Origin: Chthoniobacterales bacterium | Lineage (GTDB): Bacteria; Verrucomicrobiota; Verrucomicrobiia; Chthoniobacterales; DASVRZ01 | Assembly: GCA_039930045.1 (NCBI GenBank) | Contig: JBDSQB010000006.1 | Coordinates: 62,001 to 126,000 of the forward strand | Direction: 5' to 3' | Length of the DNA: 64,000 nt | Part shown: piece after piece, positions 17,046 to 56,035 of the stretch | Position numbering within the stretch: the first letter of the stretch is position 1 | How the letters are laid out: every line of letters begins with the position of its first letter | Program-made: the position numbers and the translations under genes | The notes under the pieces: generated by a model | The model's input: the letters and a program-made list of their open reading frames with translations, nothing else | Databases searched by the model: none | Told to the model about the DNA's origin: nothing

Positions 17046-17078
17046 CCGGGAGCGCACGCGTCTCGCGTGCGCTCCCGG
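17046..17078. repeat. Stem-loop repeat A, minimal copy
   Basis: CCGGGAGCGCACGCG pairs perfectly (15 bp) with its complement across the loop TCT. It occupies the whole gap between convergent genes (lipoprotein and sua5) and shares its arm sequence with the longer copies at 46288-46394 and 55917-56020. It could act as a bidirectional terminator, though there is no T tract. Confidence 0.85.
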
Positions 17079-33512: not shown

Positions 33513-33542
33513 AACAGCCGCAAACTGACGTTTGCGGCTGTT
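33513..33542 (-). terminator. Terminator of the rplM-rpsI operon
   Basis: Perfect 13-bp stem (AACAGCCGCAAAC with its complement) and a 4-base loop, 25 bases after the rpsI stop; the minus strand continues TTTTGTTG. A strong, intrinsic-type terminator. Confidence 0.8.
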
Positions 33543-38857: not shown

Positions 38858-40471
38858 CTAGGCCGCCGCCGCCACCATCGGGCGCGCATAATAACGCCAG
38901 TCCACCGTCGGGAAAAGATTGTCGCGCTCCTCGCAGAAAACCAGAAACGCCTCGTCGATCTTTCCCGCCTGCAACTGCTCGTGCAACCGCGTGAAACGCA
39001 GCACGTGATCCTTCGTTCGCTTGCTCGCGTACTCGCTCGCCGTGCCCGTCTTCATCAGAAACGCCCAGTCGCTGCTCTGCGCCAGGAGAAGCTCCCGGGC
39101 CATCTGGCTGAGCGCCCGATTTTTCAACCCATCCGCCTCACCGAAATACTCCGTCGCCGTCGCGATCATCCGCTCCGCCGCCACGTGCAGGTGCGGGTAA
39201 ATCCACGCATTGCTCTGGTCGAGCCAGACCTCCCAATAACCCTTGTGACCCCAACTCGAGGCCGAGGGAATAATCATCTGCTGAGTGGAATGCGACTCCA
39301 GATAACGCTCGGGCGTGGTCAACTCAAATACCGACTGATCGCACGCCGCCTTGCGCAGAAACAGATTCAAAAACTCCGGGCCCTCGTGCCACCAGTGACC
39401 AAATAACTCCGCGTCGAATGGCGTCACCACGATCGGCTCGATATTCGTGCCCGCCAGCAGCTTCTCAAACTGCGCAATGCGATGCTGCAGGAAATCTCCC
39501 GCGTGCGCATCGGCGGCCGCCATCGCCCAGTCGCGATGATACAGATCCTTGTGCGGCGTGCGGCCCGTGATGCGGTGATACTTGATCCCCGTGTTCTTCC
39601 GCTCGCCGTTCGCCGGCAGGTAGGGGCGCAAATAATCCAGCGACAGATCGTGCCCGATGTCGCGGTAGAAATCCCGATACGCCGGGTCGCCGGGATAACC
39701 CTCCTCCGCGCTCCAGACCTGGCGCGACGAATCGCGATCCCGCGCCAGCACCGCCGGACCCGCCGGCGTGTAACACGGCGAGTAGATCGCATAGCGCGGC
39801 CGCGGTTGGCCAAACATCAGCCCATGCGAATCGATCACAAACCACCGGATATTCGCCTCCTGCAACACCTGCTCGATGCCTTGAATGTAGCCACATTCCG
39901 GCAGCCAGATACCGCGCGGGTCGCGTCCGAAACACTCCCGATACGAGTCGCGCGCGATCAGAATCTGCGCCCGCACCGCTTCGGGATAGGAATGCATCAA
40001 CGGCAGAAACCCATGGGTCGCCGCGCAGGTGATGATTTCAATGGAACCCCGGTTCTGCAAACCCGCGAATTGCTGCACCAGGTCGCAGTCCCACTTCAAA
40101 AACAGATCGCGGCATTCCACAAAATGCGCGTGATAACGCTCCGCCTCCGCATGCACCAGCGGATCGGCGATCGTGCGATGCGTCTCCTGCCGCGCCAGGC
40201 CGATCAGCCGCTCGATGTGCCGCACATAACGCCGTTGCAGCAGCGGATCGCGCAACATCGCGCAGAGCGTCGGCGTGAGCGACATCGTCATGCGGAAGCG
40301 AATCCCATCCGCCTCCAACCCGTGAAACAGCTTCAGGAGCGGCACATACGTCTCCGAGATCGCCTCGTAGAGCCAATCCTCCTCGAGGAAATCGGCATGC
40401 TCCGGGTGCCGCACAAACGGCAGATGAGCGTGCAGAATCAGAGCGAGATGTCCTTTGCGAAGGTTCGGCAT
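38858..40471 (-). CDS. GH57 1,4-alpha-glucan branching enzyme-like protein
   Basis: 537 residues. N-terminal HLALILHAHLPFVRHPEHADFLEE, nucleophile Glu192 in GIWLPECGYIQGIE, general acid Asp353 in VVTPFDAELFGHWWHEGPEFL; these match positions of GH57 branching enzymes, which make alpha-1,6 branches in glycogen. A C-terminal helical region follows. Could be an inactive or differently specific GH57/DUF1957 protein, but the catalytic pair is intact. Not clustered with other glycogen genes. Confidence 0.88.
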   Translation of the reverse strand: MPNLRKGHLALILHAHLPFVRHPEHADFLEEDWLYEAISETYVPLLKLFHGLEADGIRFRMTMSLTPTLCAMLRDPLLQRRYVRHIERLIGLARQETHRTIADPLVHAEAERYHAHFVECRDLFLKWDCDLVQQFAGLQNRGSIEIITCAATHGFLPLMHSYPEAVRAQILIARDSYRECFGRDPRGIWLPECGYIQGIEQVLQEANIRWFVIDSHGLMFGQPRPRYAIYSPCYTPAGPAVLARDRDSSRQVWSAEEGYPGDPAYRDFYRDIGHDLSLDYLRPYLPANGERKNTGIKYHRITGRTPHKDLYHRDWAMAAADAHAGDFLQHRIAQFEKLLAGTNIEPIVVTPFDAELFGHWWHEGPEFLNLFLRKAACDQSVFELTTPERYLESHSTQQMIIPSASSWGHKGYWEVWLDQSNAWIYPHLHVAAERMIATATEYFGEADGLKNRALSQMARELLLAQSSDWAFLMKTGTASEYASKRTKDHVLRFTRLHEQLQAGKIDEAFLVFCEERDNLFPTVDWRYYARPMVAAAA

Positions 40472-40578: not shown

Positions 40579-40725
40579 CCCCTCGTTACCAAGCTCCAGC
40601 TTGGTAACGTAATTGTCCTCGAAGCTCCCGCTTCGTGAGGCGTCATGGTCCACACCGCGAGCCAGCGTCCAGGAAGCTAAGCTTCCAAGACAAGCGCGTC
40701 CCCAAGCTCAGCTTGGGAACGAGGG
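40579..40725. repeat. Hairpin-repeat cluster B, copy 1
   Basis: Four hairpins in sequence: CGTTACCAAGCT/AGCTTGGTAACG, CTCGAAGC/GCTTCGtGAG, GGAAGCT/AGCTTCC, and CCCAAGCT/AGCTTGGG. The outer ends (CCCTCGTT and AACGAGGG) are also complementary, closing the whole element. It fills most of the 317-base gap between the GH57 gene and a small membrane protein gene; the rest of the gap shows no further signal. Confidence 0.85.
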
Positions 40726-40788
40726 AAAGCGGATTATTCCGTCATTCGACTCAGACTCGGCTCTGCCTCGTGACGTGGTTCGTCTTCC

Positions 40789-41061
40789 TCAGTCTGGAAT
40801 CTTATCCACATGTCTAAAGATAACCCACGCGCCGACTCCGAAAATGAGCGCGATGCCAGCTAAACCCAAGATTTGCGACTGCCAGATTTCTTTGCAAGCG
40901 TTGTAGGTGTGCTCTGAACGGAACATTGTCTGCCATGCGATGTGCTGAAACCGGATGAATTGCCTGAGAAAGACAATGACAGCCAGCGTCAACAGCAAGG
41001 CCATGACAGCTAATCCAATCCCCGCCAGTTTTAACTCCGTTCTCGGCTTGAGTTTCATCAT
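40789..41061 (-). CDS. Small two-helix membrane protein
   Basis: 90 residues with two membrane segments (LKLAGIGLAVMALLLTLAVIV and ILGLAGIALIFGVGAWVIF) and a short charged N-terminus. No recognised family. Upstream of it (its left neighbour on the map) is the hairpin cluster; 16 bases separate it from the next gene. The start could be at either of two adjacent Met codons. Confidence 0.6.
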   Translation of the reverse strand: MMKLKPRTELKLAGIGLAVMALLLTLAVIVFLRQFIRFQHIAWQTMFRSEHTYNACKEIWQSQILGLAGIALIFGVGAWVIFRHVDKIPD

Positions 41062-41077
41062 GAGGCGGTGAATACGC

Positions 41078-41770
41078 CTATCCCACCGGCGGCACGGGTG
41101 GTTTGGCAGTGGGAGGCGTGTAAGTCGTGGGGATGGTGCTGCGGATCATGTCGCCGTGCGGGGTGCCGGCCACGAAGACGCGGCAGACGTCGGCATACCA
41201 AGCTTCGTTGATGTCCTCCATGTCGCGGGCGAGGGCGGCGAGCGTGTTGGTTTCGTCGCGCAGATCGCTCTGCTTCGCTGCGTAATGGGTCTTCAGGTCG
41301 CCCGCGCATTGATCGCGCAACGCCTCAAACGCCACCAGCGTATTCGCGGGCAGTGGAGCCCAACTCGGATCGAGTTTTTTCCAGGCCGTCTGCCATTCCA
41401 GCGCCTCCGCGAGCGTTTCCTCACGGCTAGAACCGACCGCCGTCAGTCCGTCGAGCTTGGCAAACTGCAGCGGCTGGTTGCGATACTTGATGCGAGCCAT
41501 GCCGAGGCCTTGCGTCGTCCAGAGATGCAACTGGTCGAGCCCGGCATCCCAGGCAATGCGCGAGCCGAGCATGGTTTGCTGAGCGGTGGCCACGATTTCC
41601 TCCTGCCCGACGACGGGCGGAGTCGCATCGGTATCGCCGATGATGCCGTGCAACTGCGTTTGCATTTCTGCGGGGGATTTCTCCGGCCAGACCCAGTCTG
41701 CGGCGACTTGATTCGCTGCGCTGATGGTTTTCACGGCCCGATTTTTGATAAATTCGACGCTTTCGCTCAT
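41078..41770 (-). CDS. Hypothetical protein, helical
   Basis: 230 residues from MSESVEFIKNRAVKTISAAN; a frame continues upstream into repeat-rich DNA but is low-complexity and not protein-like, so I start here. Predicted mostly helical, no signal peptide. Charged segments around DLRDETNTLAALARDMEDINE, and a proline-rich end (TPPTAKPPVPPVG). Not recognised. Its RBS is AAGGAG about 9 bases before the ATG. Confidence 0.65.
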   Translation of the reverse strand: MSESVEFIKNRAVKTISAANQVAADWVWPEKSPAEMQTQLHGIIGDTDATPPVVGQEEIVATAQQTMLGSRIAWDAGLDQLHLWTTQGLGMARIKYRNQPLQFAKLDGLTAVGSSREETLAEALEWQTAWKKLDPSWAPLPANTLVAFEALRDQCAGDLKTHYAAKQSDLRDETNTLAALARDMEDINEAWYADVCRVFVAGTPHGDMIRSTIPTTYTPPTAKPPVPPVG

Positions 41771-41882
41771 AATGATGACTCCTTGTGGTTGGTTGTTGCC
41801 GCCGATAGGGCCCTTTTCGCAGGGAAAAGTCAATTCAATCCAAGTCAAATCGTAAAAAACTTCCCCGCGCCGTCCGCTGGGG

Positions 41883-42282
41883 CCTCCTGGCAGGAGATGC
41901 CGGCCTCCTCGCGATAGGATGGAGCCTCCTCGCGGTGCGTCGGGACCTCCTCCGGGCATTTTATCACCTCCTCGCGGCCCACTTTCGTATCCTCGCGGCA
42001 TTCTGACGGCCCCAAGATGCCAGGAGGATGCCCAAGTGAGCCAGGAGGATGGCCAAGTGGGCCAATAGGAGACTCCAACCCGTCGCAAGGAGAGGAAAGT
42101 GAACCTCTTCTCGTTCCCAAACTCCAGTTTGGGAACGCACTTGCTCGGGAAACTTTGTTTCCTTCTGCCGAAGTCTCCCGGAGGAAACGGAGTTTCGGGG
42201 ACAAGGCATTCCCAAACGGAGTTTGGGAACGAGGAGGAGGCTGCAACCTGTCGCGAGGAGAGAAAAGTGGGCCGCCAGGAGG
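41883..42282. repeat. 21-bp-period array 2 with CCTCCT / AGGAGG core
   Basis: CCTCCT occurs at 41883, 41904, 41925, 41946 and 41967 (TATCCT at 41988): exactly 21 bases apart. Then, in reverse orientation, AGGAGG at 42022 and 42043 and again at 42235, 42256 (AGGAGA) and 42277, also 21 apart, with hairpin cluster B between. Fills the 528-base gap between two genes; no RNA gene or ORF with a known family seen in it. Confidence 0.85.
42110..42232. repeat. Hairpin-repeat cluster B, copy 2
   Basis: CGTTCCCAAACT/AGTTTGGGAACG hairpin at the left, GGGAAACTTTGTTTCC and GAAACGGAGTTTC in the middle, CATTCCCAAAC/GTTTGGGAACG at the right. The outermost ends CTCGTTCCCAAACTCC and GGAGTTTGGGAACGAG are complementary, as in copy 1. 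It sits inside the 21-bp array. Confidence 0.85.
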
Positions 42283-42298
42283 CTCGGACGCGCCGCGC

Positions 42299-43033
42299 CT
42301 ACTGGTGCAGATGCACGGGCGCTGACTTTTTCTTCATCCGCAGGTTCAGCATTTCCACGGCGACGGAGAAGGCCATGGCGAAGTAGATGTAGCCCTTTGG
42401 AATGTGTTGTCCGCAGCCTTCGGCGACGAGGACGAAGCCGATGAGGAGCAGGAAGCTGAGCGCGAGCATTTTGACAGTGGGATGTTTTTCCACAAAGGCG
42501 CTGATGCCGCCCGAGGCTGCGATCATGACGAAGAGGGCGATGACGACGGCGGCGATCATCACGTAGATGTTTTGCCCCATGCCGACGGCGGTGATGACGG
42601 AGTCGAGCGAGAAGACGATGTCGATGAGGAGGATCTGGATGACGACGGACTTAAAGGTGGCGTGGGTCTTGCCGGTGGCGTGCTCTTCCTCGGCGCCCTC
42701 GAGTTTGTTATGAATCTCGTGAATGGATTTCCAGATGAGGAAGAGGCCGCCGAGCAGGAGGATGAGGTCTTTTCCCGAGACGCCGTGGCCGAGGACGTGC
42801 ATGAACGGGTGGTCCATCGCCATGAGCCAGGAGATGCTGAGGAGGAGCAGGACGCGGGTGACGAGGGCGAGGGCGAGGCCGGTGGTGCGGGCGCGGGCGC
42901 GTTGGTCGGGCGGGACTTTGCCCGAGAGGATGGAGATGAAGACGAGGTTGTCGATGCCGAGCACGATCTCCAGAAAGGTGAGCGTGAGCAGGCTGATCCA
43001 GATTTGTGAGTCGCTGATCCAGTGGAAATCCAT
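42299..43033 (-). CDS. TerC-family integral membrane protein
   Basis: 244 residues, about seven membrane helices. EIVLGIDNLVFISILSGKVP and the later VFSLDSVITAVGMGQ each carry the acidic membrane motif of TerC. These proteins are linked to tellurite resistance, manganese export or co-translational metal loading. The C-terminal basic tail (LRMKKKSAPVHLHQ) is cytoplasmic. Stands alone; a 9-base gap to the next gene. Confidence 0.92.
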   Translation of the reverse strand: MDFHWISDSQIWISLLTLTFLEIVLGIDNLVFISILSGKVPPDQRARARTTGLALALVTRVLLLLSISWLMAMDHPFMHVLGHGVSGKDLILLLGGLFLIWKSIHEIHNKLEGAEEEHATGKTHATFKSVVIQILLIDIVFSLDSVITAVGMGQNIYVMIAAVVIALFVMIAASGGISAFVEKHPTVKMLALSFLLLIGFVLVAEGCGQHIPKGYIYFAMAFSVAVEMLNLRMKKKSAPVHLHQ

Positions 43034-46287: not shown

Positions 46288-46394
46288 TCGGGAGCGCACG
46301 CGTCTCGCGTGTTCCAGCGGACGTCTCGTCCGATGGCGAGAACCGCCCTTTCGCGAGACGCAAAAGGGAACACGCGAGACGCGTGCTCTCCCGA
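46288..46394. repeat. Stem-loop repeat A, long copy 1
   Basis: Outer arms of 28 bases (46288-46315 and 46367-46394) pair with one mismatch; the core is GGGAGCGCACGCG. Inside are hairpins GGACG-TCT-CGTCC and CCCTTT-c-GCG-AGA-CGC-a-AAAGGG. Lies between the convergent amidase and carboxypeptidase genes. Same family as 17046-17078 and 55917-56020. Confidence 0.9.
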
Positions 46395-51622: not shown

Positions 51623-52783
<1,161 letters not shown>

Positions 52784-55909: not shown

Positions 55910-55916
55910 ATTCCCC

Positions 55917-56020
55917 GGGAGCGCACGCGTCTCGCGTGTCCCAGCGGACGTCTCGTCCGATGGCCTGGAACAGCTTTGAGGCGAGACACCTCAAAGATCA
56001 CGCGAGACGCGTGCGCTCCC
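55917..56020. repeat. Stem-loop repeat A, long copy 2
   Basis: Outer arms of 22 bases (55917-55938 and 55999-56020) are perfectly complementary, starting GGGAGCGCACGCG. Inside: hairpin GGACG-TCT-CGTCC, identical to the other long copy, and CTTTGAGG/CCTCAAAG around CGAGACA, where the equivalent stem of the other copy is CCCTTT/AAAGGG. Between convergent genes. Confidence 0.92.
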
Positions 56021-56035
56021 TAAAAACTTCCGCTG

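Follow-up and report, generated by a model that had tools for sequence, protein, structure and literature searches.

REPINs and BIMEs are, in the parts of the literature on which we draw, inverted pairs of REPs that are mobilised in trans by RAYTs (Bertels & Rainey 2011, PMC3116915; Di Nocera et al. 2013, PMC3733652). In the same partial reading of the sources, TnpA_REP has been called the first domesticated prokaryotic transposase (PMC8266576), and REPtrons do not appear to move as a unit (PMC6006769). TIRYTs and TIRtrons are described as RAYT-like genes with 'double palindromic TIRs', and the double repeats of P. putida and P. fluorescens as unrelated stem-loops attached to degenerate GTAG-1 units (PMC3733652, in part). 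TnpA_REP subclass 2.6, which corresponds to Bertels RAYT group 5, is characterised by NH.H, WQ and Y-x-H-[QN]NP motifs and a median length of 179 aa, with 'atypical secondary structures' lacking GTAG beside the gene and copies of them elsewhere in the genome (PMC6006769, in part). Here we analysed a 64,000-nt stretch of a Chthoniobacterales genome, referred to as the window, in which two hairpin clusters, copies A and B, are on sequence grounds very probably non-autonomous, REPIN/MITE-like derivatives of a RAYT transposon with twin-hairpin ends.

Both clusters were found where an earlier note on this DNA had placed them (Table 1), and its count of three to four hairpins per cluster resolved to exactly four in each copy. 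Each copy runs from CTCG through an outer hairpin, a 10-nt linker and an inner hairpin to a core, and then through the mirror image to CGAG, with AAGC/GCTT at the tips of the copy A hairpins and AAAC/GTTT at those of copy B. One position of the left outer stem in copy A carries an A-T pair that is C-G in most copies, and the two halves of copy B differ, one reading ACG-CACTTG and the other ATG-C-CTTG. The ends CTCGTT and AACGAG are complementary, as the note had claimed, and the same bases also form the base of each outer hairpin, so that a closing helix would have to compete with the local hairpins for them. The multi-branched fold proposed there did not come out as the preferred structure: in both copies the minimum-energy fold was a single long rod, left half paired with right half, at −78.1 kcal/mol (z −8.7) for copy A and −84.6 kcal/mol (z −9.5) for copy B, with 0 of 200 shuffles as stable in either case. 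With RNA parameters, the four local hairpins reached −44.0 versus −76.9 kcal/mol for the rod in copy A and −35.1 versus −82.5 kcal/mol in copy B, while DNA parameters gave −41.5 kcal/mol for the whole element versus −30.1 for the four local hairpins in copy A and −45.7 versus −25.9 in copy B. Hairpins were not enriched in number in the window (13 versus 9–17 in 10 Markov shuffles), and the unusual feature is the repeated sequence, not the hairpin number.

Table 1. Positions of the hairpin elements, neighbouring genes and the RecG-embedded RAYT (window positions unless another sequence is named).
Feature	Position	Strand	Remarks
Copy A, complete, putatively non-autonomous element	40582-40723		142 bp; CTCG...CGAG; 'AGC'-tip subtype
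Copy A left outer hairpin	40584-40609	+	CGTTACCAAGCT/AGCTTGGTAACG
Copy A left inner hairpin	40620-40635	+	CGAAGC...GCTTCG
Copy A right inner hairpin	40672-40686	-	GGAAGC...GCTTCC
Copy A right outer hairpin	40697-40721	-	perfect part 40701-40717
Copy B, complete, putatively non-autonomous element	42110-42233		124 bp; CTCG...CGAG; 'AAC'-tip subtype
Copy B left outer hairpin	42112-42137	+	
Copy B left inner hairpin	42148-42162	+	GGAAAC...GTTTCC
Copy B right inner hairpin	42184-42196	-	GAAAC...GTTTC
Copy B right outer hairpin	42207-42231	-	perfect part 42209-42229
GH57 glucan branching enzyme	38858-40471	-	
TerC	42299-43033	-	
RecG-embedded RAYT	L016:112-2925		G000:C1 ~49.4-50.0 kb

Palindrome CGTTCCCAARCTNNAGYTTGGGAACG, allowing up to two mismatches, occurred 30 times in the 3.52-Mb genome, compared with 0 times for the reversed control pattern. 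We then built a covariance model from 36 half-elements (alignment A2), picked by eye for having an inner hairpin and a foot equal or close to CTCG. Its genome scan scored 150 of 1651 first-look candidates, so that the element catalogue is a lower bound. At least 98 matches were obtained at E≤1, and at E≤0.01 at least 61 covered the model in full; in two cases a pair of these 61 represents the two strands of a single palindrome, which leaves 59 places, each with a half-element or a lone palindrome. Of the 61 full-model matches, 60 went into the pairing script (all but the opposite-strand match of the lone palindrome C17:123487), which returned 23 facing pairs; one of these, of 805 bp, reuses half of a shorter pair, leaving 22. 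These closed pairs take up 44 of the 59 places, the other 15 being unpaired, and are spread over 12 of 23 contigs, 21 of them measuring 115–209 bp and one 412 bp; within the window, the covariance model found full halves in copies A and B only. The note's view that the element deserved a catalogue was right, and the genome-wide search gave a mixed answer on whether elements elsewhere are single hairpins without closing ends, to which the 15 lone places conform and the 22 closed pairs do not. Two inverted palindromes about 100 bp apart, the arrangement expected of a REPIN or BIME, are present in these 22 pairs.

The hairpins had also been described as varying in sequence while keeping their pairing, and a covariation test on the 36 halves agrees. 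Standard pairs filled 93.3% of pair cells versus 87.7% in shuffles, changes on both sides affected 7 of 17 pairs versus 3.2 in shuffles (27 cells versus 5.7), and pair conservation was well above that of slid partners too. As the halves are related and were found by their palindromes, this covariation demonstrates that pairing was kept, not why. Among 16 elements examined, 10 had one half of an ...AACG-CACTTG-like type and the other of an ...AATG-C-CTTG-like type; four AGC-tip elements and two others carried the same letter on both sides. Given the 10 with unlike halves, most of the examined elements seem to stem from an ancestral element whose left and right ends already differed, and not from chance pairing of equal palindromes. 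At the 32 ends of these elements, CGTT is preceded by T in 32 and by C in 31, making the foot CTCG and none of GTAG, GTGG or CGTC; one more C, in 25, extends its conservation outward to CCTCG, and it fades beyond.

The surroundings of the copies raise the possibility of a host RNA element, transcribed between genes on the same strand, whose rod serves to stabilise or terminate mRNA. The ORFs that flank the two copies are all on the minus strand, among them 90-aa and 230-aa frames without a Pfam match; both have strong folds; and G-U pairs occupy 14 of 36 and 11 of 36 cells at two pairs of the stems. We nevertheless consider an RNA element quite improbable, as an Rfam scan of the window at gathering scores yielded tRNAs and no other family, no T run follows either copy on either strand by eye, and the copies are scattered and share their ends with a transposase gene described below. 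The G-U cells at pair 6-30 come from ends of the ATG type, of which 10 of the 16 elements have one each, and are an end asymmetry rather than random wobble. Other repeats were seen in the window: copy B sits inside a stretch (41867-42298) in which CCTCCTCGCGG/CCAGGAGG recurs imperfectly, in direct and in inverted orientation, with outer arms that also pair, and perfect hairpins with 13-bp stems at 33513-33542 and 51630-51660 belong by sequence to neither palindrome family, the latter followed by TTTTCATTTT and possibly a terminator candidate.

To place the clusters among related genomes, we made the comparison at order level, the genus and family being represented by the window's genome alone, with 213 genomes in the palindrome survey and 210 in the transposase survey. 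The oriented palindrome, at up to one mismatch, occurred in 19 of the 213. We searched 11 genomes with Pfam Y1_Tnp, of which eight carry the palindrome and three do not, and were directed to G038 and G040, where a single short gene is framed by a twin-hairpin end on either side (L128 1151-1819, 669 bp, and L129 1184-1860, 677 bp, respectively). The same ends flank a transposase gene, and mobile DNA is the aspect missing from the earlier note. This putative autonomous form measures ~670 bp and encodes a transposase of ~176 aa; P0001, the protein of such a gene, has 19 relatives at 57–69% identity. A transposase match at E≤1e-20 was present in 14 of 210 genomes (the next best was 4.6e-13); 10 of the 14 also had the strict palindrome, and the other four (G037, G041, G123 and G126) had variant twin hairpins in the flanks. 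Conversely, 9 of the 19 palindrome-bearing genomes had no transposase match at E≤1e-20, of which perhaps one is among the three palindrome-survey genomes outside the transposase survey. With the 210 genomes treated as independent, co-occurrence of transposase and palindrome gave p 2e-9 in a Fisher test.

The window's own genome retains an open-frame, full-length copy at C10:149705-150232, 61% identical to the P0001 query, with a degraded left end (covariance model E 0.16) and a complete small element on the other side; with its flanks in this state, the copy may not itself move. An N-terminal transposase remnant (C10:52168-52470) lies inside the 412-bp element C10:52139-52550, which is a half-deleted copy, the intermediate deletion form expected if MITEs derive from a RAYT transposon. 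In G040, two copies on contig C466 align at 92.5% identity along 683 columns, starting with TCCTCG and stopping with CGAG, and show no homology beyond those points, which fits transposition of the whole gene-bearing unit; the copies stand 0.9 kb apart, and local duplication followed by change outside is an alternative. Six other same-genome pairs in six genomes and the remaining two pairs in G040 are 64–72% identical and are taken to be separate lineages. Ends were not clear at L145 of G019, L173 and L174 are broken copies with poor or no ends, and a further copy, in G145, is broken too; an empty-site comparison of a single element, L097 of G146, found the upstream side not orthologous in four congeners. 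Some elements are readable in frame (L134:539-2851 in G019 and frames across L128 and L129), and yield recurrent peptides, LVPKLQLGNA and SSFPSSSLGT among them.

Scanning genome contigs with the 20-protein alignment gave 231 encoded relatives, of which the best 80 were kept and joined by L176, the own copy, to make 81 loci. By record titles, the best 80 of 231 come from ~15 phyla, many from metagenome bins whose labels may be wrong, and in every one of these phyla one locus or more is flanked on both sides by the outer palindrome. Over the 81 loci, the outer palindrome was found upstream in 71, downstream in 67, on both sides in 64, on at least one side in 74 and on neither in 7, and was therefore missing from one or both sides in 17; all four hairpins were present at 49. 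Shuffled flank pairs had it on both sides in 0 of 1620 cases, and control stretches 780–1000 bp away had 0 upstream and 1 downstream, flanks that were too short being skipped. The rule for the outer hairpin demands TCC-N-A, so that GTTACC-type ends, such as those of the own open-frame copy, in which the strict rule detects no outer palindrome, are missed. Where the left outer hairpin was present, the inner one was too in 59 of 71 cases, versus 23% in shuffles. A cognate RAYT gene between the same palindromes, a further mark of the REPIN/BIME arrangement, is seen in G038 and G040 and at these 64 of 81 loci.

Several lines of evidence identify the encoded protein. All 20 members matched the NCBIfam model REP_Tyr_transpos (NF047646) at E≤1, the best at 1.8e-33, and P0001 scored 113 bits against its cut-off of 80, within the RAYT family; 17 of the 20 also matched Pfam Y1_Tnp at E≤1, the best at 2.9e-5, and the NCBIfam IS200 model gave P0001 16.1 bits against a cut-off of 55. 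The best PDB sequence match was 4er8 TnpA_REP (E 1.5e-8), the structure of a REP-associated tyrosine transposase in complex with a REP hairpin. The AlphaFold model (pLDDT 93.9) had the same entry as its best fold match (E 5.2e-9, TM 0.67/0.71), which places it in the TnpA_REP fold, followed by ISDra2 and IS608. H60, H62 and Y137, that is, the HUH motif and the tyrosine, are invariant in the 20 sequences and in the 42 of alignment A3 (which started from a hand-picked 45 of the 80 and lost L249, L251 and L253, with L227 and L246 shortened by one codon), and from its place in a Y-x-x-NP motif Y137 would be the catalytic tyrosine. Taken at the level of sequence and predicted fold, the transposase is a single-domain HUH/Y1 protein of the TnpA_REP/RAYT family.

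The elements resemble MITEs in their long terminal inverted repeats, short non-coding body and asymmetric ends, and they might instead derive from an ordinary DDE transposon whose ends are read as double-stranded DNA, the RAYT genes being passengers. This we find barely credible: the gene encodes a Y1 transposase fold whose solved relatives bind hairpins, and pairing covaries within each hairpin, which a double-strand site would not need. The loci compared were themselves chosen by a Y1 transposase and so leave room for another gene between such ends elsewhere. A more substantial alternative, still unlikely in our judgement, is that only fossils remain of a domesticated or dead system, the copies having spread long ago with nothing moving now. 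Divergence among the copies (mean column identity 79% over the halves), the 15 of 59 orphaned places and the damaged end of the own transposase copy would agree with it, whereas the open frames and unvarying catalytic residues of the transposases in many genomes, and the 92.5% identical full copies in G040, do not.

Outer and inner hairpins of the same end tend to be alike. At left ends, their tip triplets were the same in 39 of 59 cases, versus a shuffle mean of 18.1, and their middle loop base in 47 of 59 (25.1); at right ends, the counts were 35 of 54 (14.5) for the triplets and 41 of 54 (25.3) for the loop base, with 0 of 10000 shuffles reaching these values in each test. The commonest mismatch was outer AGT with inner AGC (9 left, 7 right), followed by outer ATC with inner AAC (3 left, 2 right). 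On the protein tree, outer tips changed at least 22 times and inner tips at least 18 times, and tip agreement was clumped; a tree test of G versus not-G in the middle rested on 2 independent pairs on starred branches, or 4 on all branches, and was not significant. With only two to four independent pairs, shared descent can explain much of the agreement. That each end is two copies of one recognition hairpin, with the tip triplet and loop as a specificity code and the transposase and both hairpins changing together, is a tentative idea to which we give a little less than even weight.

In the derivation of the clusters from a twin-hairpin RAYT transposon that we favour, the hairpins at the ends would, by analogy with TnpA_REP and IS200/IS605, fold when the strand is single, as at a replication fork, and the transposase would bind them and cut beside the CTCG foot with Tyr137. 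The cut piece would then be joined elsewhere, and the transposase could act in trans on gene-less copies. The frequent match of tip and loop between outer and inner hairpins makes it probable that a single protein surface recognises both, and the presence of a similar pair at each end would point to two protomers, or two contacts, there. Effects on neighbouring genes we take to be a by-product. A clade holding gene-bearing and gene-less copies with the same sharp ends gives an opportunity to study how REPINs arise from transposons, and the natural variation of tips and loops offers ready-made pairs for testing how a Y1 protein reads a hairpin.

The sole Pfam Y1_Tnp match in the window's genome (E 9e-4) belongs to another RAYT, one embedded in frame within RecG (Table 1). 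In this 938-aa frame the RAYT is surrounded by the RecG wedge, DEAD, Helicase_C and RecG domain 3, the Y1 part falling below the E 0.001 threshold in the Pfam domain scan of that frame. As the cognate gene of the clusters it was rejected, its terminal repeats being different: a 23-bp repeat, CGGGAGCGCACGCGTNNCGCGTG, occurs at both insert ends and has 91 matches in the genome (up to three mismatches, both strands) versus 0 for the control. This family is commoner than the cluster palindrome, with many copies in facing pairs ~83 bp apart, and has copies in the window at 17046-17078, 46289-46393 and 55916-56021. The Y1 part of the insert was matched at E≤1e-12 in 100 of 210 genomes, and 74 of the best 82 matches (E≤1.1e-45) lay in frames of at least 450 aa. 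Of the best 30 loci, inspected by eye, 19 from 19 genomes share one fixed position in RecG, four are short frames standing on their own and two are unclear, and the rest had Pfam domains of AlaS (two), ThrS (one) or MetH (two); at other loci, Pfam recognised RecG (five ORFs including the own, two of them among the 19 besides the own), CarB (three) and MetH (one). The relatives covered are L288-L296 and L309-L338. RAYTs within housekeeping proteins across the order are arguably stranger than the clusters, and possibly represent a captive, intein-like way of life. The part of PMC3733652 available to us notes REPs inside genes, many of them for replication and repair, and there reports no whole RAYT gene inside another gene; our literature text search found no paper on RAYTs inside such housekeeping genes. 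A free-text search for the letters of the cluster palindrome returned only unrelated subjects among the matches listed.

The closest described systems each share part of this organisation, insofar as the portions of the sources that we cite describe them. As in REPINs and BIMEs, short inverted palindrome pairs are dispersed and the cognate RAYT gene is flanked by the same palindromes; unlike them, the elements have a CTCG foot in place of GTAG, GTGG or CGTC, two hairpins per end that tend to share tip and loop, and, in most elements examined, ends that differ in type. TIRYTs and TIRtrons likewise hold RAYT-like genes in long inverted repeats, some with two palindromes and some with dispersed copies (PMC3733652), but the two hairpins here resemble each other, a distinction drawn from descriptions and not from sequences. 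NHFH, WQ and Y-x-HNNP and the protein length agree with subclass 2.6 by its Table 1 motifs rather than its HMM (PMC6006769), and that subclass is mostly from Bacteroidetes (PMC6006769), whereas the proteins here come from the window's order and from records of ~14 other phyla. IS200/IS605 elements such as IS608 and ISDra2 share the Y1 HUH fold, hairpin ends and a gene inside the unit, but here the ends are inverted copies with two hairpins each and the IS200 model scores far below its cut-off. The repeated unit includes the gene, and in this it departs from REPs as those sources describe them.
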